Position numbers and translations under genes: made by a program. Source: Marisediminicola senii (lineage in GTDB: Bacteria > Actinomycetota > Actinomycetes > Actinomycetales > Microbacteriaceae). From it: a stretch of DNA of 42,320 bases. Below the pieces are notes generated by a model. It did not search any database, was not told the DNA's origin, and saw nothing but the letters and a program-made list of their open reading frames with translations. Location: the NCBI RefSeq assembly GCF_011057645.1, contig NZ_JAALGE010000023.1, positions 1-42,320 on the forward strand, in the 5' to 3' direction. This document shows, piece by piece, positions 341 through 39,685 of this stretch; positions within the stretch are counted from its first letter, which is position 1; each line of letters begins with the position of its first letter.

Positions 341-2290
341 TCAGGTCGCGGCGGGTCGTTGCCGACGGAGTTCTGCGGCGATCGGGCTCTTGCTCGGCAT
401 CGGGATCAGCACTCGGTCGGGGTCGACATCGGGTGGGGGCTTGAGGAAGTACTGTGCCCTGTCGCGGACGACTCGCCACCCGTTGTTGTGGATCATCATG
501 TGGTGATGCCGACACAGGCAGATGCCGTCAGCGATGTCTGTGTTGCCGCCGGGCTCGCCGTTCACACCGTGCCACGGGTTGATGTGATGGGCTTCGTAGC
601 GAGTTCGGGGACACCCGGGGAAGCGGCATCCACCATCGCGCACTTCAAGTGCGGTGCGTTGCTTGTCGGTAAAGGAGCGTTTGTCGCGGCCCACGTCGAG
701 TGGTTGCCCGTCGGGGTCGATGAGAACGCCGATCATTCCCGTGGTGCAGATGAGGCGTTCGACCGTGCCGATGGAGAGGGCTTCGTCGCTGCCGTGGATG
801 TGTCCGGGGCCGGTGCCTTGCTCGAGCCGTTCGGCCGTGATGACGACCCGCACGCTCGGGTTGCGGGAGCCGAGCAGCCGGCCGACGGCCGCGCCAGAGC
901 CGGCGGCGCCTGAACCGGCCGCGCCTGAACCGGCGGCGCCTGAACCGGCCGCGCCAGAACCGGCCGCGCCAGAACCGACGGCGCCTGAGCCGGCGACGCT
1001 AGAACCGGCGCCAACGGGGGCGTTGGCGTCATCATGAACGTCGGCGTCGACACTACGCCTCGTGGCGGACTTCGCTTTCGGCTTCGCATTCGCTTTGGCC
1101 TTCGCCCGTGCCCTCGCGCGGGCCTTGGCCGTCGCGTTGTGCTCGGCGTTGGCGTCGATGGCGAGCTGGACCATTTCCATGAGCGCGTCCGCTCGCAGCT
1201 GGTCGTCGGTGCGCGGGTCTTTCATCAGCGCCTCAGCCCGGGCCTGTTCGACCTCGTCGACGAACCGCACCCCGCGACGCGGGGAGAGGACCTGGGCGAA
1301 GACGTCTGCGAACAGGGCGCCGTCTTCCGGCGCGAGGGCCCATGATCCGCGGTACATCCCGTTCGGGTCCTCCCAGATGTGCACGTACCGGTCTTCGTGC
1401 TGCTGCTTCTCGCGCCGGGCGATGCTGGCCGCGTCGATGCGGTCTCGTAGCTGTCGAGCAAGCCGGTACAGCTGATCGGAGTTCATGCCGTTGGCCGCCC
1501 GGATGAGCTCATCCGCGGCGCGGTTCATCGTGTGGTCATCGCAACTGGTGATCTCGCAGAGCACTCGGCGGATGGTGTCGAGGCCCTGAGGGGACAACGT
1601 TCCGGCCTTCTGCGCTGCGGCGAGACGCTCGCGCCAATTCAGGATGCGTGCCGGAGCGGGGGTTGGAGTGGGAGCGAAGGCGGGTGGTTCAGTGGAACCC
1701 GGTGCACCCTCCCCCGGTTGCGCCTCTTCGGTTCCATCACTGGGTACCGGATGCGCGTCGGCACCTGGAGACACGTCACCTTGCGGGGAGGGGCTACCGG
1801 GCTCGTCGGTACGTTCGTGATCGGCGCCAGTCGCTGCGAGGAGTTCGGCATATTCGGCCTCGGCGAGCAGGGTTCCCGTCTGCACGAACCGGGTGGCTTC
1901 CCGCTTGGTCAACTGCAGCTCGGTCTGCACCATATCGGTGGCATTCGTGTACCCGGAGCGCTGCGCCAGACCCTGATGACCCAGCTCCCAGCGAGACCGA
2001 CGCGCGACCTCACCCGAGTACAGCGCGGTGTGTTCGTCGACGTACCGTCGCATCGCCAGGAGGGAGGCGCCCGCGTGCGCGAACTGGGCCGGGTCGAGCG
2101 AGGCGTAGGCCATGGCGGAGCGTTCGACCTCGGCGACAGCGTGGGCAGAGGCCACTAGCGGGTCAGAAGGCCGGGGATCTCCCGCCACCGCCCCGGGCGC
2201 GGATGCGTCAGCGACCGAGCCGCCGAGCGGATCCGCGAGACCCACCGGATCGTCCGGTGAACCTGCCTCCGGAGTGGGAAGGAATTCCAT
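341..2290 (-). CDS. DUF222 (13E12-type) protein with C-terminal HNH endonuclease domain
   Basis: A 649-residue protein of the 13E12 repeat/DUF222 family, which is abundant in actinobacteria and often multicopy. The N-terminal two thirds is the DUF222 region. The C-terminus carries an HNH nuclease fold at about 555-603 with two zinc-type CxxC-like pairs (CRFPGC, CLC), the catalytic HH of YEAHHINPW and a final HHHMMIHNN. Between them lies a low-complexity linker: a Lys/Arg/Ala stretch (about 388-415) and about eight GSGAA pentads (about 428-466). The ATG at 2290 has a GAAGGA element just upstream, inside a palindrome that resembles a LexA box. Nuclease activity is inferred from the motifs; the biological role of the family is not settled, with DNA-damage response or mobile-DNA functions both proposed. 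Confidence 0.9.
891..1010 (-). repeat. 15-base minisatellite inside the DUF222 gene
   Basis: About eight imperfect copies of a 15-base unit of the type GCGCCTGAACCGGCC, each encoding the pentad GSGAA on the minus strand. The unit length is a multiple of three, so gain or loss of copies keeps the reading frame and only changes the length of the linker between the DUF222 and HNH regions. Confidence 0.85.
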
Positions 2291-30095: not shown

Positions 30096-33000
30096 TCAAC
30101 TGGTTTGAGTTGCGGTTGTCGTATCCTGAGCCACTACTGCACCGAAAATGGCAATAAGAAGTTCGCTTGTCCACGCAATTAATGCCGCATCGTCTGGCAG
30201 CGCGCCGTTCTTCTTGGGTAGCGGCACCGTCACCGACTTGCTCGCCGCGAAGTAGCGTGCACCGGGGTACATGCGCTGCAGGCGAATTTGGACGGAATCG
30301 AGTAGCTCCGTGGTTGCGACACGCAGGTTGCCGCCCATCGAAACGACCTCACTGAGACCGGCCTTCTGTGCCATTCGGCGTAGACGCGAAACCTCGACGA
30401 GGTTGCGCACCTGCTCCGGGGGCTCGCCGTAGCGGTCGGTGAGTTCTTCGAGGACCTGGTCGATCGCGGTATCCGCCGATGCAGGTCCACTCGCGGCCGA
30501 CAGCTTTTGGTACGCCTCGAGCCGAAGGCGCTCACTCTCGACGTACTCCTCGGGGATGTGCGCATCGACAGGTAGTTCAAGGCGGAGCTCGGTCTGGCCC
30601 TCAGCGACGTCGCCGCGGAAGGTGCTGACGGCCTCACCGATCATGCGCAGGTAGAGGTCGAAGCCGACGCCGGCGATATGTCCGGACTGCTCACCACCGA
30701 GCAGGTTCCCCGCGCCACGGATCTCGAGGTCCTTGAGAGCAACGTGCATTCCGGCCCCGAGCTCATTATTCGCGGCGATGGTTGCCAGGCGGTCGTGGGC
30801 TACCTCTCCGAGGGGCTTCTCGGCGTCGTAGAGGAAGTACGCGTAGGCGCGCTCGCGTCCGCGGCCGACCCTCCCCCGCAGCTGATGCAACTGGCTGAGG
30901 CCGTACTTGTCGGCCCGGTCGATGATCAGCGTGTTCGCGTTCGCGATGTCGAGGCCGGTCTCGATGATCGTGGTGGAGACGAGCACGTCGTACTTGCGTT
31001 CCCAGAAGTCGACCATCACCTGCTCGAGAACGTGCTCGGGCAGCTGTCCGTGCGCAACGGCGATGCGCGCCTCAGGCACGAGTTCGGCGATCTGGGCGGC
31101 GGCGCGGCTGATACTCGATACCCGGTTGTGCACGAAGAACACCTGGCCCTCGCGCAGCAGCTCGCGGCGGATGGCGGCGGTGACCTGCGCGGGGCTGTAG
31201 GGCCCGACGTAGGTGAGGATTGGGTGCCGGTCCTCCGGCGGGGTGGCCAGGGTCGACATCTCACGAATACCGGTGACAGCCATCTCCAGGGTCCGCGGGA
31301 TGGGCGTCGCGCTCATGGCGAGGATGTCGACGTTGGTCTTGAGCTTCTTCAGCGCGTCTTTGTGCTCGACGCCAAAGCGCTGCTCCTCGTCGATGATGAC
31401 TAGCCCGAGGTCCTTGATGACGATGCTCTTCGACAGCAGGCGGTGGGTGCCGATGACAAGGTCTACGGTGCCGTCGGCGAGGCCGTCGATGGCCTCCTTT
31501 GACTCCTTCTCGGTCTGGAACCGGCTGAGGGCGCGAAGGTGCACGGGGAATCCGGCGAACCTCTCGGCGAAGGTCTCCATGTGCTGGCGCACGAGGAGGG
31601 TGGTCGGCACGAGCATGATGACCTGCTTGCCGTCCTGGATGGCCTTGAACGCGGCGCGGATGGCGACCTCGGTCTTGCCGTAGCCGACGTCGCCGGCGAT
31701 GAGGCGGTCCATCGGGATGGGCCGTTCCATGTCGGCCTTGACCTCATCGATCGTGGTGAGCTGGTCCGGGGTCTCCGCGAATGGGAACGCCTCCTCGAGC
31801 TCGCGCTGCCACGGGGTGTCGGGTGGGAAAGAATGGCCCTTGCTGGCCATGCGGGCGGAGTACAGCTTGACGAGCTCGACGGCGATGTCGCGCACTGCGC
31901 GGCGAGCCTTGCCCTTGGCGGCGGACCAGTCGCTACCACCCATCTTGCTCAGTGACGGTGCCTCTCCCCCGACGTAGCGGCTGAGGAGGTCGAGCTGGTC
32001 TGTGGGAACGTAGAGCTTGTCGCCCGGATAGCCGCGCTTCGAGGGCGCGTACTCGATCGCTAGGTACTCGCGCGAGTTCTTGACCGGGTTGCGGCCACCG
32101 GTGCTGACCTCGCGCTGCACGAGTTCGATGAACTTGCCGATGCCGTGGGTGTTGTGAACAACGATGTCGCCGGCCTTGAGTTGCAGCGGGTCGACGACAT
32201 TCTTGCGGCGGGTGGCGAGCTTCTTGACGGCGCGGGATCCGTAACCGGCTGCGCGACCGTAGAACTCGTTCTCGCTGAGCACAGATATCTTGGCGTCGGG
32301 CAGTTCGAAGCCGGCTTCGACGGAGGCCTGGATCAGGTAGGCGACACCGGCCTCGGTCTTCTTGGGAAGCTCGTCAGAGACGCGACCGGACATGCCGTGC
32401 TCACCGAGTGCTTCGGCGGCCCGGTCGACGAGACCGGTGCCCTGGGCGACGACGACAACGGTCCAGCCATCGGCGAGGCGGGCGCTGACATGGTCGATGG
32501 CCCCGTCGGCGACCCCGGTAAAGCTGGGCACGGTGGTGGCGGCGATGCGCACATAGTCGCCCGCGCTCTCGACCATGGCCGAGATGTCGGTCTCAGGGGT
32601 GGCATCGGCAGCGCCACTGTCGAACGAGCTAAGGGTCCACCAGGCGCGGCCGCCGGCGGCGTCGCGCAGCTTGGGCAGACTCATGAACTCACCCGAGGCG
32701 AGGTCGATCGGGGCCTCCGCTCCGACGGTGGCGGCGTTCCACGCGGCGCTGAGGAATTCGCGATTCGTGTCGACGAGGCTCTGGGCTCGGGCGGACACGC
32801 GTTCCGGGGAGAACACCGCGATGGCGGCATCCACCGGAAGGTAATGCGTAATGGGCACGAGCTTGTCGACGAGCGCGGGGGCAAGGGACTCCATGCCGTC
32901 GACGGGGATGCCCTCGGCGATCTTGGCGAGCATGGTGCTGAGGCTGGGGAACTCGTGCTGCATCTCGCGGGCGCGCTGGCGCACCTCGGGGCTGAGGAGC

Positions 33001-33719
33001 ATCTCGCGGCTGGCCGGCAGGTCCACCGTCTCGACGGGGTCGGGAAGAGATCGCTGGTCTGCGACCGAGAAGAAGCGGATCTGTTCGGCCTCGTCTCCGA
33101 AGAACTCGATGCGGGCGGGGTGCTCGGCGTCGGGTGCGAACACGTCGAGAATGCCGCCGCGCACCGCGAATTCGCCGCGACGAGTCACCATGTCGACGCG
33201 CGTGTAGGCGAGGTCGACGAGCTGCACGGAGAGTTCGCCGAGGTTGTAACCGCGCCCGCCGGTGGTGAGGCGTAGCGGTTCGAGGCTAGTGAGGTTGTCG
33301 GACAACGGCTGCAGTGCCGCGCGCACGCTGGCGACCACCACGATGTCGGTCGTGGTGGTGCCGGCGGCGATGCCTTCCTGCCACTCCTTCATTCGGCGGA
33401 GCGCGTGAATGCGCTTGCCGACGGTCTCGGCCGATGGGCTGAGACGCTCGTGCGGGAGGGTCTCCCAGGCGGGAAACTCCACGATTTCGGCAGTCGGGAT
33501 CATGCACGGCAGCGATGCGCGGAGAGATTCGGAATCCCGGCCGGTAGCGACGATGACGAAGAGCGCCTGCGGGCCGGTGCGGGCGTCGAGGAGCCCAGCG
33601 AGGAGCGGAGCGCGCAGCCCGTCGACAAGGGAGAAGTCAGCGCTGCGTTTGGCGTACTCCAGGGCGTCACCGAACGTTTGGGCGCGCGCGAGCGCCGGGA
33701 TCAAGCCCTGAAGAGTCAC
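30096..33719 (-). CDS. mfd: transcription-repair coupling factor
   Basis: A 1207-residue ATP-dependent translocase that removes RNA polymerase stalled at lesions and recruits UvrA. It has the N-terminal UvrB-like region, a CarD-like RNA polymerase interaction domain (near LKAGDIVVHNTHGIGKF), and the RecG-like helicase with Walker A GDVGYGKTE, DEEQ (IIDEEQRFGV), SATPIPRTLEM and GRVGRGRERAYAYF, then the C-terminal TRCF domain. GTG at 33719 gives the usual N-terminus. In related genomes it neighbours pth/rplY and mazG; here glycan genes lie on both sides. Confidence 0.97.
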   Translation of the reverse strand: MTLQGLIPALARAQTFGDALEYAKRSADFSLVDGLRAPLLAGLLDARTGPQALFVIVATGRDSESLRASLPCMIPTAEIVEFPAWETLPHERLSPSAETVGKRIHALRRMKEWQEGIAAGTTTTDIVVVASVRAALQPLSDNLTSLEPLRLTTGGRGYNLGELSVQLVDLAYTRVDMVTRRGEFAVRGGILDVFAPDAEHPARIEFFGDEAEQIRFFSVADQRSLPDPVETVDLPASREMLLSPEVRQRAREMQHEFPSLSTMLAKIAEGIPVDGMESLAPALVDKLVPITHYLPVDAAIAVFSPERVSARAQSLVDTNREFLSAAWNAATVGAEAPIDLASGEFMSLPKLRDAAGGRAWWTLSSFDSGAADATPETDISAMVESAGDYVRIAATTVPSFTGVADGAIDHVSARLADGWTVVVVAQGTGLVDRAAEALGEHGMSGRVSDELPKKTEAGVAYLIQASVEAGFELPDAKISVLSENEFYGRAAGYGSRAVKKLATRRKNVVDPLQLKAGDIVVHNTHGIGKFIELVQREVSTGGRNPVKNSREYLAIEYAPSKRGYPGDKLYVPTDQLDLLSRYVGGEAPSLSKMGGSDWSAAKGKARRAVRDIAVELVKLYSARMASKGHSFPPDTPWQRELEEAFPFAETPDQLTTIDEVKADMERPIPMDRLIAGDVGYGKTEVAIRAAFKAIQDGKQVIMLVPTTLLVRQHMETFAERFAGFPVHLRALSRFQTEKESKEAIDGLADGTVDLVIGTHRLLSKSIVIKDLGLVIIDEEQRFGVEHKDALKKLKTNVDILAMSATPIPRTLEMAVTGIREMSTLATPPEDRHPILTYVGPYSPAQVTAAIRRELLREGQVFFVHNRVSSISRAAAQIAELVPEARIAVAHGQLPEHVLEQVMVDFWERKYDVLVSTTIIETGLDIANANTLIIDRADKYGLSQLHQLRGRVGRGRERAYAYFLYDAEKPLGEVAHDRLATIAANNELGAGMHVALKDLEIRGAGNLLGGEQSGHIAGVGFDLYLRMIGEAVSTFRGDVAEGQTELRLELPVDAHIPEEYVESERLRLEAYQKLSAASGPASADTAIDQVLEELTDRYGEPPEQVRNLVEVSRLRRMAQKAGLSEVVSMGGNLRVATTELLDSVQIRLQRMYPGARYFAASKSVTVPLPKKNGALPDDAALIAWTSELLIAIFGAVVAQDTTTATQTS

Positions 33720-33801: not shown

Positions 33802-34617
33802 TCAGCACGTTGTGTACACATAATCGTCATCGTTCGCCGGGACGAGGTTGTGGTCGCGGACGATGGTCGACGGGGACGGGTCGAGGGCGGTGACGCGGGA
33901 GCACACCGCGTCGACGGTTCCTCGGAGATCGTCGGCGTATTCGATGTTGTAGACCAGACCGCCGTACGCAGCGGTGTAGGCGTCGCATTCGTCGTACCGG
34001 TCGCACTGCTCGGTGATGGCGAGATCGAAACCGATGTCGTTCCGGCCTACCTCTGCAACTTCGGGCGCGTTTTTCTGCGCGGCAGCAAGACCCCGGGCAT
34101 GGGCAGACTCGACGAGTTGGGTTGCGAATGCCACAGCGTCGGCTTCGTCGAGGGCACCTCCGGAGCGCGTCCAGGAGTCGAAGTTGTCGAATTCGACGGC
34201 TAGGTAACCGGAGTCGTCGCATCCATCGACCGTCGTCTTGAGGCGCTCGGCAATCGCAGCACGCTTAGCAGGGGTTGAGGTATCGAGGATGTTCTCGTCG
34301 GGCCAGCCGGGGTCGACCAGCAGCTCCCCATCGTCGGTGTGGACGAGGAGGGCGGCGGGCCACGCGACACCAGGCTGGGTCTGGAACCCGTTGACGTAAC
34401 AGATGCCATATGCGTCCTCGGCGGCATCGTCGGTGCTGTCGCGGGCGACTACCTCGGCGCCGGGCGGGACTGGGGAATTGCCGCCGAGTTGGTAATCGAA
34501 CTGTGCGCCGGCTGGGGGGAGCACGATGTCGTTCGGCGATGCGGCGTCCTCGCTTTTGCATGCCGTGATGGTCAGCGCGGCAGTCAGGAGGAGTGCAATG
34601 GAGAGGGTGACTCGCAT
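33802..34617 (-). CDS. lipoprotein with GH114 (endo-alpha-1,4-polygalactosaminidase-like) domain
   Basis: A 271-residue secreted lipoprotein. The signal peptide ends in a lipobox with Cys20 (ITAC), after which the mature protein is acylated and stays on the outer face of the membrane. The domain matches the GH114/TM1410 fold: FDYQLGG at about 40, a RDSTDD stretch, ICYVNGFQTQP, the LAVEFDNFDSW segment holding the probable catalytic Asp/Glu, then LAAAQKNAPE. GH114 enzymes cut galactosaminoglycan in biofilm matrix. Activity is inferred. It lies immediately downstream of the displaced pth fragment on the same strand. Confidence 0.85.
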   Translation of the reverse strand: MRVTLSIALLLTAALTITACKSEDAASPNDIVLPPAGAQFDYQLGGNSPVPPGAEVVARDSTDDAAEDAYGICYVNGFQTQPGVAWPAALLVHTDDGELLVDPGWPDENILDTSTPAKRAAIAERLKTTVDGCDDSGYLAVEFDNFDSWTRSGGALDEADAVAFATQLVESAHARGLAAAQKNAPEVAEVGRNDIGFDLAITEQCDRYDECDAYTAAYGGLVYNIEYADDLRGTVDAVCSRVTALDPSPSTIVRDHNLVPANDDDYVYTTC

Positions 34618-34664
34618 GGGCCGAGCTTAGGGTGCGGTGGCGGACGGCACCCGGGCGCTGCGGG

Positions 34665-34984
34665 CTACGTCGCGGTGTGAAACTCCAGCTGCGCTGCCGT
34701 CAGTCCGTCGGCGGTGACGAGCTCGACAGCATCAGACAGCGTTTTGGGGAGCATCTGCCGCTCGGTGGAGGAGAAGTCACGCAGCACGAAGTCGGCGGCG
34801 GGCTGGCGTCCGGGAGGGCGGCCGATGCCGACGCGCACCCGGAGGAAGTCGTTGGTGCCGGTCGCGGCGATGATGTCGCGCAGGCCGTTGTGTCCGCCGT
34901 GTCCCCCACCGTTCTTCAGGCGTATGGAGTCGAACGGGATGTCGAGTTCGTCGTGCACCACGATGAGGTGCGACGTCTCGATCG
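34665..34984 (-). pseudogene. displaced 3' half of pth (5'-truncated copy)
   Basis: This frame encodes the C-terminal 100-odd residues of peptidyl-tRNA hydrolase and ends in TAG at 34665. Compared with the intact gene at 39101-39685 it starts at the equivalent of residue 87, so it lacks catalytic His23 and Asn71, and it has an in-frame 9-base deletion (three residues near the equivalent of 170). The 220 bases at 34754-34973 are identical to the intact gene. Homology ends at 34984, beside a small inverted repeat GATCG/CGATC at 34980-34993. A functional enzyme is not expected. Confidence 0.92.
34754..34973. repeat. 220-base direct repeat, left copy (pth 3' half)
   Basis: Read by eye, this block is identical base for base to 39199-39418 in the same orientation. 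To its left (34663-34753) similarity to the other copy drops to about 87% with a 9-base gap, so identity ends sharply at 34754. It brackets the acyltransferase unit with its partner. Confidence 0.92.
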
Positions 34985-35100
34985 CAAACGATCAATCTGG
35001 GTGGAGGAGTCCCGGTGGTGAGAATGAAGTGGCAGCTAGCTGTTGCTGACGGGGTACCCTGAACCGACATTCGCGTGCCGAGCATTGGGGAGCCCGCCGC

Positions 35101-36174
35101 ATGACACGACTCGATTCGCTCACCGGAGTGCGGTTCTTCGCCGCGTTCCTTGTCTTCGGATTCCACAGCGTCGCGTACGTCGGCGGCTCACAACTCGACG
35201 TGTTTAGCGCCGGAATGGTCGGCGTCTCGCTGTTCTACATCCTCAGCGGGTTCGTGATGTCGTGGACCGCTCGCGAAAGTGACCTCGTAGGGCACTTCTA
35301 CCGGCGTCGGTTCGCCCGCGTCTACCCGGCATTTTTCGTTGCCTGGTTGCTCTCGCTCGCGCTTCTGCTTAGCCGTGGCTCACTCGACCTGTGGGACGCT
35401 CTGCCACCCACATTGCTACAAGCTTGGTTCCCGGTGGAGGCCGCCTACTTCGCCGGCAGCGCCGTATTCTGGAGCCTGTCTTGCGAGGCGTTCTTCTACT
35501 TGGTGTTCCCGTTCCTCAATCGCCTACTGGCGAGGTTCGGTATCCGTGGTCTTATTGTCATTGGCCTCGCTGCAGCAGCGGTGAGCATCGGAACGGCAGT
35601 CGCCATGCTCGGAGTCGCAGAGGGCCCACTCACTCGGTGGGCGCTAATCATCTTCCCGCCGCTGCGCCTGATGGAGTTCGTGATCGGCGCGGTGCTCGGA
35701 CGTCTTTTCCGGCGCGGCATCCGCGTGCCAGTGCCCGTCTCGGTCGCCGTCGTGCTGGCGGGAGCCGGTGTATACCTCTCATCCATCGCGCCTTACTCGC
35801 TATCCCGGTACGCGGTGACGCTGCTGCCTTTCGTCGTCCTGGTGGCGGCGCTTGCGAGCAGCGACCTGAAGAACCGTCCCAGCGTTTTCCGGTGGACTCC
35901 GGTTGTTTCACTTGGCGTGTGGTCCTACTGCTTCTACCTATTGCACGCCATGGTGCTTGTCAGTGTGTTCGTCATTGCGTCGAGAACAGGCGTGATCGAC
36001 GACGGAGCATCGAGTCTTCGCGTCTGGGGTGTCCTCGGTTTCGCGTTTATCGCATCCGTTGCCGCAGCTTGGATACTCCACGTCCTGGTGGAACGGCCCT
36101 ACGAGCGACGCTTTCGAGTTGCGGGTCCCAAAGAAACAAGCCAGCCGCCGGAGTCCACTCGACAGATACAGTGA
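35101..36174 (+). CDS. acyltransferase 3 family membrane protein (OafA-like)
   Basis: A 357-residue membrane O-acyltransferase of the OafA/NodX type, with about ten helices. Family marks are LTGVRFFAAFLVFGFHS near the N-terminus (catalytic-type His), GMVGVSLFYILSGFVM, FYRRRFARVYPAFF and SLGVWSYCFYLLHAMV near the C-terminus. GGGGAG precedes the ATG at 35101. It would acetylate or otherwise acylate a glycan sugar. It is convergent with the next acyltransferase, 18 bases apart. Its link to the glycan locus is by inference. Confidence 0.9.
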   Translation: MTRLDSLTGVRFFAAFLVFGFHSVAYVGGSQLDVFSAGMVGVSLFYILSGFVMSWTARESDLVGHFYRRRFARVYPAFFVAWLLSLALLLSRGSLDLWDALPPTLLQAWFPVEAAYFAGSAVFWSLSCEAFFYLVFPFLNRLLARFGIRGLIVIGLAAAAVSIGTAVAMLGVAEGPLTRWALIIFPPLRLMEFVIGAVLGRLFRRGIRVPVPVSVAVVLAGAGVYLSSIAPYSLSRYAVTLLPFVVLVAALASSDLKNRPSVFRWTPVVSLGVWSYCFYLLHAMVLVSVFVIASRTGVIDDGASSLRVWGVLGFAFIASVAAAWILHVLVERPYERRFRVAGPKETSQPPESTRQIQ

Positions 36175-36192
36175 GGCAAGGAACCGGCTGCG

Positions 36193-38163
36193 CTAAGGAA
36201 TGTGCCTCAGCAGCTGCTCCTCAAACGCATCCGTCATCGAGAACGCAAAAGTCGCGGTCATGTGGTGCGCGTCGCGGTAGACGAGCGCATTGCCGATGAC
36301 TGCGGGGCAAGACGACTCATTGCAGAAGTAGTCGACGAAGTCGAGATATTCGGCGTCGAGATCCTGCTCGGCCGCGCGAGTGTCGGGGTCGATAGCCGTC
36401 TCACGCGAAATGGCGCATTCCGATGTGTCGTCAAGGTGCGCGGAGAGACAGATTGACGGATTAGCGAGGGCGTGCGGAGTGTCCGCAATGACCACGACCC
36501 CGGATGACGACGGTAACGCGTTCACAGTGGCGCCCAGCGCGTCACGCCACGTTTGGGCCGCGTTGGCATCGCTCGCCACCTGTGCTCGGCTGTAGTTAGC
36601 CAAGAGCACGACATCCGGTGCTGCGGCGTTGAGCCGTTCGATTACGGCTTCGCGCCAGACCTCGCAGGCCCCGTAGTCGGGTTCGGCGAGGATCGCTGAC
36701 GCGCATGAACTCTTAGTGTTCACGTCCAGCCGGATGGTGCCACGGTCGGCGAGCTCCGCCAGCGCGGGGTACCACTGAGCGGCATGCGAATCGCCGAACA
36801 AAGCAACGAGCGGCGCTTCCGAATTCTTGCCAAGCTGGCAGCCGGACGCATCGGTGGCGCTGAAGTTGCGGTGGCACCCGTTCGAGTAGATTTCGGGGTT
36901 GTCGTCGGCAACTGCGCGCAGCGTGGGCCGCATGTTGGAGGGCACAAACGGCGTCCCTTCCGGGAGCATCGTCACATCTGCCTGCGGTGCTTCGCGGTCG
37001 TCACTTAGCTGCATCGCGTTCACGGGGACACTTGCGACCGCAGCCAGCGCGAGGACCGCTACCGACGCACAAATCGTGGCCACGAGCGAGCGGCGCGGAC
37101 GGGACAGGGTCAGAAACCGCCATTTGCGACCGGGTTCCTCGACGTACTTCCAGCTAAGCCAAGCCAGCGGTACTGCGGCAGCCCCGAGAGCGAGCGTCGC
37201 CGAGAGGGGCAACGGACTGCTGACACCCACCGCCTCCTGCGGAATGACTTGTAGCGGCCAGTGGATGAGGTAGAGCGAGTACGAAATCCCGCCTAAGAAT
37301 AATGCCGGGCGAACGGATAGCACCTTGGCCGGCCCGTACCTCCCGCGCCGAACACCGGCCAAAATGACGAGCGCTGTCCCAGCCACGGGGAGCGCCGCCT
37401 GCCACCCCGGGAAGGTGGTCTGTGCGGTGTATGTAAATGCTGTCACGAGGATCATGGCCAACCCGAGCCACCCCAGGAAGGGCAAGATCCTCGCGTTCAG
37501 CCATCGCGGCGCGGCAGCTACCAGCAGGGCCAGCAGCCCGCCCGCGCCCAACTCCCATGCCCGCGTCGGGAGCATGAAGAAAGCTATTGGTTGCGAGATT
37601 TCGGTGACTACGACAGAGCACGCGAACGAGATCGCGACCACGAATACGAGCGAAACGACCACCCCGCGGAGGGAACGCTTTGCCCACACAAACACGAGCG
37701 CCATGAGCAGCGGCCACAACAGATAGAACTGCTCTTCGATACCGAGCGACCAGTAGTGCTGGAACACAGACGGTGCTGTTTCCGCGAGGTAGTCGGTGCC
37801 CTCGACCGCAAACAGCACGTTCGGCACGTATAGGGAAGTCGCCGCCGCGGCCCGCAGCATGGCCGGCAGCTGTAGCGGCGGTAGCCAAATCAGGCTGGCC
37901 ATCAGAGACAGCAGCAGCACCACGAACGATGCGGGCAGAATACGCCGCGCACGACGGGCGTAAAACTCGGCGAATCGTAGCCGCCCGTGGGCTTGCATCT
38001 CGGACCAAATATGTCCCGTGATGAGGAACCCGGAGATGACGAAGAACACGTCGACACCCACGTACCCGCCGCTGAGTATGCCGACGCCACTGTGATAAAG
38101 AACCACAAGAAGGACTGCGATCGCTCGTAGCCCTTGAATATCCCCCCGGAATGCTTTCCCCAC
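36193..38163 (-). CDS. acyltransferase 3 fused to SGNH hydrolase domain
   Basis: A 656-residue OatA/OafA-type fusion. The N-terminal part has DIQGLRAIAVLLVVLYHSG, VGVDVFFVISGFLITG, the FYARRARRILPA loop and YSLYLIHWPLQ, about ten to eleven helices in all. After a further helix (about 358-375) the C-terminal extracytoplasmic SGNH domain has GDSHAAQW (nucleophile Ser) and DAHHMT (catalytic Asp/His). It moves acyl groups across the membrane and onto a surface glycan or peptidoglycan. The GTG at 38163 begins the conserved N-terminus; no strong ribosome binding site is seen. Confidence 0.92.
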   Translation of the reverse strand: MGKAFRGDIQGLRAIAVLLVVLYHSGVGILSGGYVGVDVFFVISGFLITGHIWSEMQAHGRLRFAEFYARRARRILPASFVVLLLSLMASLIWLPPLQLPAMLRAAAATSLYVPNVLFAVEGTDYLAETAPSVFQHYWSLGIEEQFYLLWPLLMALVFVWAKRSLRGVVVSLVFVVAISFACSVVVTEISQPIAFFMLPTRAWELGAGGLLALLVAAAPRWLNARILPFLGWLGLAMILVTAFTYTAQTTFPGWQAALPVAGTALVILAGVRRGRYGPAKVLSVRPALFLGGISYSLYLIHWPLQVIPQEAVGVSSPLPLSATLALGAAAVPLAWLSWKYVEEPGRKWRFLTLSRPRRSLVATICASVAVLALAAVASVPVNAMQLSDDREAPQADVTMLPEGTPFVPSNMRPTLRAVADDNPEIYSNGCHRNFSATDASGCQLGKNSEAPLVALFGDSHAAQWYPALAELADRGTIRLDVNTKSSCASAILAEPDYGACEVWREAVIERLNAAAPDVVLLANYSRAQVASDANAAQTWRDALGATVNALPSSSGVVVIADTPHALANPSICLSAHLDDTSECAISRETAIDPDTRAAEQDLDAEYLDFVDYFCNESSCPAVIGNALVYRDAHHMTATFAFSMTDAFEEQLLRHIP

Positions 38164-38172
38164 GCCGCGAGG

Positions 38173-38520
38173 CTACCCGATGAGGCGGGCTTTCACTCGA
38201 CCGGGGGTGTTCTGTGCTGCGGTCAGGCGCGCGTTCTCCGCGGTCAGCTCGGAGATCTGGATGCACAAGTCACCGCTGATGGCGAGCATTCGATGAATCT
38301 GCTTATTTGGGCCGCTTGGAGCAGGGCGTTGAGTTGGGTCGTGGTGGATGCGGGGGTAGGGGCGTTGGGGATGGCTGATCGACACCGAAGAATTTAGCAC
38401 CACTTCACCTGACGACCGCGCGATGGCGATCGGGGCGTTAGTTTCGGCGCCCGAGTCGTCATGCCGTCGCGATGTGAAGGGCGAGCCACTGTTGCGGCCG
38501 GTCCCAGCGTTCGAACCCAT
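38173..38520 (-). CDS. uncertain short frame upstream of the SGNH acyltransferase
   Basis: A frame of 115 codons ending 10 bases before the GTG of the acyltransferase. Only its last 40 residues look protein-like (an amphipathic, coiled-coil-type ISELTAENARLTAAQ segment); the upstream part is rich in Ser/Pro/Arg and may not be coding. An internal start (near MLAISGD) is more likely than the full length. I do not recognise it. It could be the 3' remnant of a truncated gene. Confidence 0.25.
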   Translation of the reverse strand: MGSNAGTGRNSGSPFTSRRHDDSGAETNAPIAIARSSGEVVLNSSVSISHPQRPYPRIHHDPTQRPAPSGPNKQIHRMLAISGDLCIQISELTAENARLTAAQNTPGRVKARLIG

Positions 38521-39082
38521 TCAAATTCACCATTTACGGCGCCTTCGAGTTACCGGGCCCGAAGTCGAACCGCGCTGCGCTGCGGTACCACCCCTAGTGG
38601 GTGCCCCGATCTGGAACTCCGACTGGTTCGTGCAGATAAACGAGAAGCCTGCGTTGGTGAGATAACGGAAGGCGACGTCGACTCCGACACCACCGGTGTT
38701 GGACTGAATGTAGGTGATTTGAAAACGAGTGCACAGAAAACCCGCGGCGACCGGTACCTTGCCGGGCTCGATGGGCTGCGCCGCTCGATTATGGCCCTCA
38801 CATTCAGGTGGGGAGGTCGTTGATGAACGCCTTGCGGTGCAATGATTCCCGATGCCGGAGTTCTGGCCGTCAGTCTGATTTATTTGACCAGTGAACCGGG
38901 GCACGTTTGGGGCCGTGAGTCCGCTGTCGACCAGCAGTCCACCTACAGGTGCGTACCTGGGCACATCGTGGCTTGACGGGCCCGGGTCTTTGCCGCAGTC
39001 GTGGAGGTAAATAGCGGTCTTGACTCTGGTTCAGCACGAGCGGATTGTGCCGTGCAGGAGCGCGATGTCTGCCATCGGGGGC
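38521..39082. other. gene-poor stretch next to the pth 3' end
   Basis: No secure gene. A minus-strand frame at 38527-38964 (145 codons) has mixed composition with some protein-like segments (CTRFQITYIQS, VDVAFRYLTNAGFSFICTN) but no recognisable family and no ribosome binding site. Base composition is lower in GC than the flanks. It may be decayed coding DNA from the integrated unit. No tRNA or terminator was seen. Confidence 0.4.
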
Positions 39083-39100
39083 GACGCCGGGCGCTGCGGG

Positions 39101-39685
39101 CTACGAGGCGGTGTGGAACTTCAGCTGCGCTGCGGTGAGTCCGTCGGTGGTGACGAGCTCCACAGCATCCACCGCATCAGACAACGTATTGGGGAGGGTC
39201 TGCCGCTCGGTGGAGGAGAAGTCACGCAGCACGAAGTCGGCGGCGGGCTGGCGTCCGGGAGGGCGGCCGATGCCGACGCGCACCCGGAGGAAGTCGTTGG
39301 TGCCGGTCGCGGCGATGATGTCGCGCAGGCCGTTGTGTCCGCCGTGTCCCCCACCGTTCTTCAGGCGTATGGAGTCGAACGGGATGTCGAGTTCGTCGTG
39401 CACCACGATGAGGTGCGAGGGCTCGATCGAGTAGTACTTGAGGAGGTTGGCGACCGGCCCGCCCGACACGTTCATATACGTATTGGGCTTGGCCAACACC
39501 AGCTTCGGCGCGCCGGGGGTCGTGCGACCCTCGGCTACCGCAGCGTTCGCCCTGTGGTTGCGAAAGTTCGCCGAAACGCGGTGCGCGAGCTCGGTGAGCA
39601 CCATCGCACCGACGTTGTGGCGGTTGCCGGCGTAGTCGGGCCCGGGGTTGCCGAGCCCGACTACGAGCCACTGGTTTTCGCCCAC
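39101..39685 (-). CDS. pth: peptidyl-tRNA hydrolase (intact copy)
   Basis: A 194-residue enzyme that releases tRNA from stalled peptidyl-tRNA. Catalytic and substrate residues are present: His23 (GNRHNVG), Asn71 (YMNVSG), Asp97 (HDELD) and Asn118 (GHNGL). It begins with GTG at 39685, and rplY ends 29 bases upstream, the usual rplY-pth operon order. Its 3' half is the right copy of the direct repeat, so its current 3' end may have been supplied by the integrated unit. It keeps the canonical length near residue 170 where the displaced copy has lost three residues. Confidence 0.96.
   Translation of the reverse strand: MGENQWLVVGLGNPGPDYAGNRHNVGAMVLTELAHRVSANFRNHRANAAVAEGRTTPGAPKLVLAKPNTYMNVSGGPVANLLKYYSIEPSHLIVVHDELDIPFDSIRLKNGGGHGGHNGLRDIIAATGTNDFLRVRVGIGRPPGRQPAADFVLRDFSSTERQTLPNTLSDAVDAVELVTTDGLTAAQLKFHTAS
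39199..39418. repeat. 220-base direct repeat, right copy (within intact pth)
   Basis: Identical in sequence and orientation to 34754-34973. Homology to the left copy continues weakly to 39429 on one side and, with about 12 substitutions and a 9-base gap, to about 39083 on the other. Confidence 0.92.

Follow-up and report, generated by a model that had tools for sequence, protein, structure and literature searches.

How did two acyltransferase genes of Marisediminicola senii come to lie between two copies of the same end of a housekeeping gene? The DNA analysed here (the window, 42,320 nucleotides of contig NZ_JAALGE010000023.1) belongs to a 3.24-Mb draft genome in 110 contigs (99.8% complete, 0.28% contamination) whose closest matches by pth are in the Microbacteriaceae. 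The original prediction had described the 3′ half of pth as present twice in the same orientation, once completing the intact gene (39101–39685) and once without its head (34665–34984), and had placed two surface-glycan acyltransferases between the copies. These coordinates hold, and both intervening proteins match Acyl_transf_3, one of them with a fused SGNH domain. To this layout we add a GH114 gene, which stands between the headless copy and mfd (Table 1).

Two copies of the pth 3′ end flank two acyltransferase genes

The headless copy contains an open frame (34665–34961, 98 aa) that matches positions 87–176 of the 183-position Pept_tRNA_hydro profile. It lacks the N-terminal catalytic residues of Pth and is presumably no working hydrolase. 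Six-frame translations of the 0.9 kb separating the AT3-SGNH gene from pth gave no match to Pfam up to an E value of 1. A scan for promoters and terminators returned 0 and 5 sites, respectively, compared with 1.0 and 3.8 in shuffled sequences. Searching the genome with the repeat returned its two full matches, plus two others of 33 and 29 bp.

Table 1 Features of the pth–mfd region, in window coordinates
Feature	Coordinates	Strand	Evidence or remark
rplY-like gene, ribosomal protein L25	39715–40440	−	Ribosomal_L25p + Ribosomal_TL5_C; conserved upstream neighbour of pth
Intact pth, peptidyl-tRNA hydrolase, 194 aa	39101–39685	−	Pept_tRNA_hydro profile positions 1–183 of 183
Direct repeat, intact-pth copy with 14 bp beyond the stop	39087–39429	−	Repeat comparison
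220-bp tract in intact pth	39199–39418		Identical to 34754–34973
0.9 kb without recognisable gene, AT3-SGNH gene to pth	38164–39086		
AT3-SGNH acyltransferase gene, 656 aa	36193–38163	−	Acyl_transf_3 + SGNH
Acyl_transf_3 acyltransferase gene, 357 aa	35101–36174	+	Acyl_transf_3
Repeat edge, 11 bp with two mismatches, after which homology stops	34974–34984		Putative illegitimate junction
Headless pth copy with 14 bp beyond the stop, lacking the 5′ half	34651–34984	−	
220-bp tract in headless copy	34754–34973		Identical to 39199–39418
GH114 glycoside hydrolase gene, headless pth to mfd	33802–34617	−	Glyco_hydro_114
mfd	30096–33719	−	Named in the original prediction; conserved downstream neighbour of pth in relatives

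The repeat is a mosaic

The two copies are offset by 4,445 bp and align as 262 nt at 97% and 83 nt at 90% identity, with a 9-bp indel. The repeat extends 14 bp beyond the pth stop, and those 14 bp are unchanged between copies. The 220 identical bases reported earlier are exact; what had been missed is that the repeat is a mosaic, in which all 14 mismatches and the 9-bp gap fall outside this run. The 11-bp stretch forming the 5′ edge contains two mismatches; the gap and the other 12 substitutions lie in the pth tail, where 77 of 89 aligned bases are alike (counted by hand). When the mismatches were scattered at random, an uninterrupted run of 220 bp or longer had a frequency of 2 × 10−5 across 100,000 trials. 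Because the mismatches cluster outside the run, the copies did not just diverge together after a single duplication. Either a native head would have crossed to a donor tail, or conversion would have made the middle identical again; the mosaic fits a putative crossover within pth. At the 5′ edge, pth homology stops abruptly at 34984, on the side of the Acyl_transf_3 gene, with a possible 8-bp microhomology.

By eye, 6–7 of the 12 tail substitutions are synonymous against an expected 29% (P = 0.10 and 0.03), and 7 of 12 are at third codon positions (P = 0.07). The synonymous excess may lean slightly towards divergence between working genes. Compared with 83 relatives, the headless tail lacks a three-residue block, the D and A of which are kept in 77 and 79 of the 83, and it carries K where 61 have N and E where 74 have K or R. 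The intact tail has the residues common in the relatives at those positions. This distribution supports the linkage as assembled, and the departures suggest that the headless tail has undergone decay. The best match among the 83 was 0.765 for the intact tail and 0.775 for the headless tail, so the two are nearer each other (77/89) than either is to any of these relatives, and this nearest-neighbour comparison named no donor.

The pth–mfd interval varies among relatives

We located pth in 84 loci, having left out L021 beforehand as it is the same contig as L013 (280,224 bases each), and took mfd from whole-protein tblastn matches adjoining pth. L016 was dropped as a contig-edge duplicate of G002, and in five loci the retrieved stretch ended before mfd, including two where the contig itself stopped soon after pth. 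Gene order in the relatives was L25–pth–mfd, with the rplY-like L25 gene before pth as in the window. Across 78 loci the pth–mfd gap was at most 201 bp in 54, 202–1,000 bp in 13 and above 1,000 bp in 11. The relatives had been expected to show a simple site, and at the level of genus and family they do, with one pth, a short gap and no match to these two acyltransferases in the fetched stretches (E 1e-5). The comparison stands at that level because there was no other strain of the same species to compare.

The 11 large gaps with cargo make the pth–mfd site variable. Ten proteins from six of these loci were scanned, of which six matched Pfam, in different families, and four had no Pfam match. 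In the congener G001 the cargo (L012:9065–11161) is a DUF222-HNH protein; elsewhere it includes a RecQ-like helicase, a GFO/IDH/MocA oxidoreductase and an amidohydrolase, so that different cargo occupies the same place in relatives, as at a hotspot. DUF222 proteins also occur at the left end of the window (341–2290). In Agreia sp. PsM10 (L079:10711–14518), a GmrSD_N protein, a protein of no assigned family and an AAA_15 ATPase lie from pth to mfd, possibly a defence system.

In none of the 11 of 78 loci is the cargo accompanied by a partial pth copy. In gaps of about 280 bp or more, the pth-end repeats among the matches listed were short and started near or beyond the stop. In five loci (L037, L043, L053, L072 and L085), stretches of about 50–90 nt around or past the pth stop recur in the gap at 77–94% identity, and in L037 a 72-nt stretch recurs three times.

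Chromosomal hotspots without recognisable mobile elements have been described, with recombination at the flanking core genes (PMC5635113). The pth–mfd site resembles them in carrying variable cargo between two core genes, but it does so across a family rather than within one species, judging from gap length and cargo.

No recombinase, further unit or donor was found

The statement that no recombinase is visible applies to the contig: none was found among the window proteins scanned, and a genome-wide search for the tyrosine integrase family PF00589 gave no match on the contig and nine on other contigs. Integrative elements carry an integrase gene within the element, and several of them may use the same site; no such gene was found in the insert, and the cargo at this site in relatives comes without partial pth. 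Nor does the insert look like an insertion sequence or transposon, with no inverted pair at both of its ends (the nearest is a 27-nt pair at 74%) and no transposase among its scanned proteins. Pfam scans of its proteins, and of the six frames of its 0.9-kb part, detected no gene for replication.

We searched 299 family genomes, its own included, for the 98-residue headless protein and obtained a match in 295. Besides its own genome, six of the 298 others gave a second pth match, none of which proved a real partial copy. Those in G002, G008 and G294 were contig overlaps (505 bp at 99%, 6,000 bp at 100% and 329 bp at 98.5%, respectively); in G212, which has 9% contamination, one match stood at equal coordinates on two contigs; and those in G089 and G235 were chance matches with E near 8e-4. 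None of the proposed further pth-flanked cassettes turned up in the 298 other genomes, which are a sample of a larger group; the search would miss any fragment that is far shorter than the headless copy.

At an E value of 1e-10, 132 of the 298 other genomes had a match to the DNA of the insert. Among the matches listed, similarity falls in the two acyltransferase genes, at 65–93% over short stretches; the best of those listed covers 0.85 kb at 70% (G275), and the 14 kb retrieved around that match contains no pth. With the pth side as query (38166–39195), 41 of 397 other family genomes matched, all on pth tails, and as to a donor, none of the 397 matches the insert side for more than 26 bp beyond the pth stop. 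Relatives of the AT3-SGNH protein occur in four of five congeners (best 37–43% identity) and one of the 357-aa Acyl_transf_3 protein in one of five (39%), all elsewhere in the genome.

Of 72,556 plasmid records 24 matched the insert, as did 7 of 50,697 phage records, and none covers 80% of it. The matches listed (10 of the 24 plasmid and all 7 phage matches) are short and lie in the acyltransferase domain of the AT3-SGNH gene. Six pattern matches in viral contigs included no pth relative. A narrow literature search found nothing relevant on pth as an integration site or on the pth–mfd interval in Microbacteriaceae.

The original prediction had offered integration into pth or a partial duplication, with the unit possibly able to leave as a circle. 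Gene insertion between pth and mfd with partial duplication of pth stands. A defined cassette that excises and reintegrates is not supported: no second pth-flanked unit was found in the 298 other family genomes, and the matches listed from phage and plasmid records were all short and confined to the acyltransferase domain. In principle RecA could excise the unit by way of the 220 identical bp, as it could at any direct repeat.

Homology-anchored capture as a proposed origin of the locus

As read from the sequence, the uneven divergence of the repeat appears to suit a one-off homology-anchored capture, or an old duplication with conversion, better than a recent site-specific integration. The reading we favour, at a probability of about 0.45, is that a foreign pth–acyltransferase segment was captured without an integrase, with homology in pth as the anchor at one end and an illegitimate join at the other. 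A segment from a related bacterium, with a pth 3′ end followed by two acyltransferase genes, would have entered the cell, and its pth end would have recombined homologously with the resident pth, leaving the gene whole and its tail now of donor type. Past the first acyltransferase the far end of the segment, lacking homology, would have been attached by an illegitimate join within pth, at a point upstream of the crossover and probably in a sister chromosome. The headless relic adjoining GH114 and mfd would then be what remained of the old tail. The duplication with its mosaic identity, the gene order shared by relatives, the variability of the site and a contig on which no integrase was seen are all observed; that the tail came from a donor, in what order the steps occurred and that a sister chromosome took part are inferred.

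An exact 220 bp on the 5′ side followed by a diverged tail is as expected of a native head crossed to a donor tail. Capture also agrees with an L25–pth–mfd order that has a short gap in most relatives and other cargo above 1 kb in some, and with the lack of a PF00589 match on the contig; the synonymous share of the tail substitutions may lean weakly the same way. Against it, no donor match runs further than 26 bp beyond the pth stop in the 397 other family genomes, and since the two tails are nearer each other than to the 83 relatives, a donor would need to be closer than any genome searched. The headless tail also looks decayed, and the lack of any change in the 220 bp then requires conversion or a native tail that was already unusual. 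Nor does capture explain the two mismatches in the 11-bp edge, unless that edge is microhomology at the join.

Products of like shape are known, which by analogy would favour capture. In an E. coli conjugation experiment, 56 of 60 lacZ-minus recombinants were the duplication product; 14 of these were sequenced and had duplications of 109–950 bp, which the authors explain by single crossover of a truncated circle, the commoner route there, while the remaining 4 of 60 apparently arose by homology-facilitated illegitimate recombination (PMC3240628). Displacement by the latter process has been proposed to leave orphaned 3′ ends in Vibrio (PMC5361080), and in pneumococcal transformation duplications are described as arising by alternative pairing with the sister chromosome (PMC3784515). 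Our locus has an orphaned 3′ end, and would have a homologous end and a putative non-homologous join, like products of homology-facilitated illegitimate recombination (PMC3240628, PMC5361080), but it shows partial duplication of the recipient gene instead of a deletion, and no donor sequence was found in the 397 other family genomes. The event appears to be a clear instance of a type already known rather than a new mobile element.

The main rival, to which we give a distinctly smaller though real share of belief, is an old partial duplication in which the headless copy and the insert are both of long standing, the copy decayed throughout and a recent conversion from the intact gene restored the 220 bp. 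Divergence indeed flanks the identical tract on both sides, with two of 11 bp at the 5′ edge and 12 of 89 plus the gap in the tail, and it is the headless copy that departs from residues frequent among the relatives. Yet at least half of the tail substitutions are synonymous, weakly above the expectation for free decay (P = 0.10 or 0.03), the 14 bp beyond the stop are unchanged, and this account requires an extra event reaching nearly to the end of homology.

It is unlikely that a circle carrying a piece of pth and the two acyltransferases entered by a Campbell-type single crossover, from which RecA could release it again as a 4,445-bp circle through the 220-bp repeat. Direct repeats 4,445 bp apart around the insert would result, and truncated-circle crossover is the explanation given for the partial duplications in 56 of the 60 E. 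coli recombinants, where the insert likewise has a complete gene end on one side and a truncated copy of it on the other (PMC3240628). Those duplications involved a laboratory plasmid with identical sequence, whereas here one side of the repeat is diverged (PMC3240628). After crossover with a diverged circle one would expect differences to either side of the exchange rather than 220 identical bases, unless conversion followed, and we rank this route below capture and old duplication because such a crossover alone cannot leave one-sided identity. Moreover, the insert has no replication gene that we could find, and the plasmid and phage records gave no related unit beyond short acyltransferase-domain matches among those listed.

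Some integrative elements insert in the 3′ end of a gene and restore that end, and the orientation and anatomy here fit, with a whole gene bearing a new tail and a displaced old tail in the same orientation. Site-specific integration, with the integrase since lost or acting from elsewhere (nine PF00589 matches lie on other contigs), is nevertheless improbable. No integrase match lies on the contig, no pth-flanked element occurs in the 298 other family genomes and no pth relative in the viral contigs, and the identical core of 220 bp is far longer than usual att cores.

We consider it very unlikely that the repeat was misassembled from a pth–GH114–mfd chromosome plus a separate 4.4-kb circle, or from a strain mixture: the draft has 110 contigs and a short read might not span the 220 identical bp, but swapping the flanks would put the tail without the residues common in relatives on the chromosomal pth, and contamination is 0.28%. 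Least credible of all is that pth serves as a homology port through which recombinase-free cassettes, made of a pth tail and glycan-modifying genes, would be swapped repeatedly among Microbacteriaceae by RecA, each leaving a headless relic and changing how the polysaccharide of the neighbouring locus is decorated.

Neighbourhood and implications

The interval from mfd to mazG (window 7630–30095) is a 22-kb polysaccharide locus with genes for Bac_transf, Wzz, Wzy_C and Polysacc_synt (Wzx-like) proteins, glycosyltransferases and two pyruvyltransferases. The mfd–mazG distance was 9–4,674 bp in the 50 relatives' loci where mazG was found. A further 32 rows, among them stretches that overlap within one genome, gave no mazG; 13 of the 32 extend at least 4.8 kb beyond mfd, so a longer mfd–mazG interval is not unique to this genome. 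The two insert genes probably modify the sugar coat of the bacterium, and they may decorate the polysaccharide of the neighbouring locus. Among five congeners a relative of the GH114 protein was found only in G002 (56%), on another contig than its mfd, so the GH114 gene may be a separate acquisition.

The pth–mfd interval is a variable site in Microbacteriaceae. In our locus, where the edges of the tract are still visible, one can read how foreign DNA could be captured without an integrase by way of an essential gene that nevertheless stays intact. A mobile unit of this sort would provide a means of switching surface-glycan acylation that needs no recombinase, if mobility were the case here.
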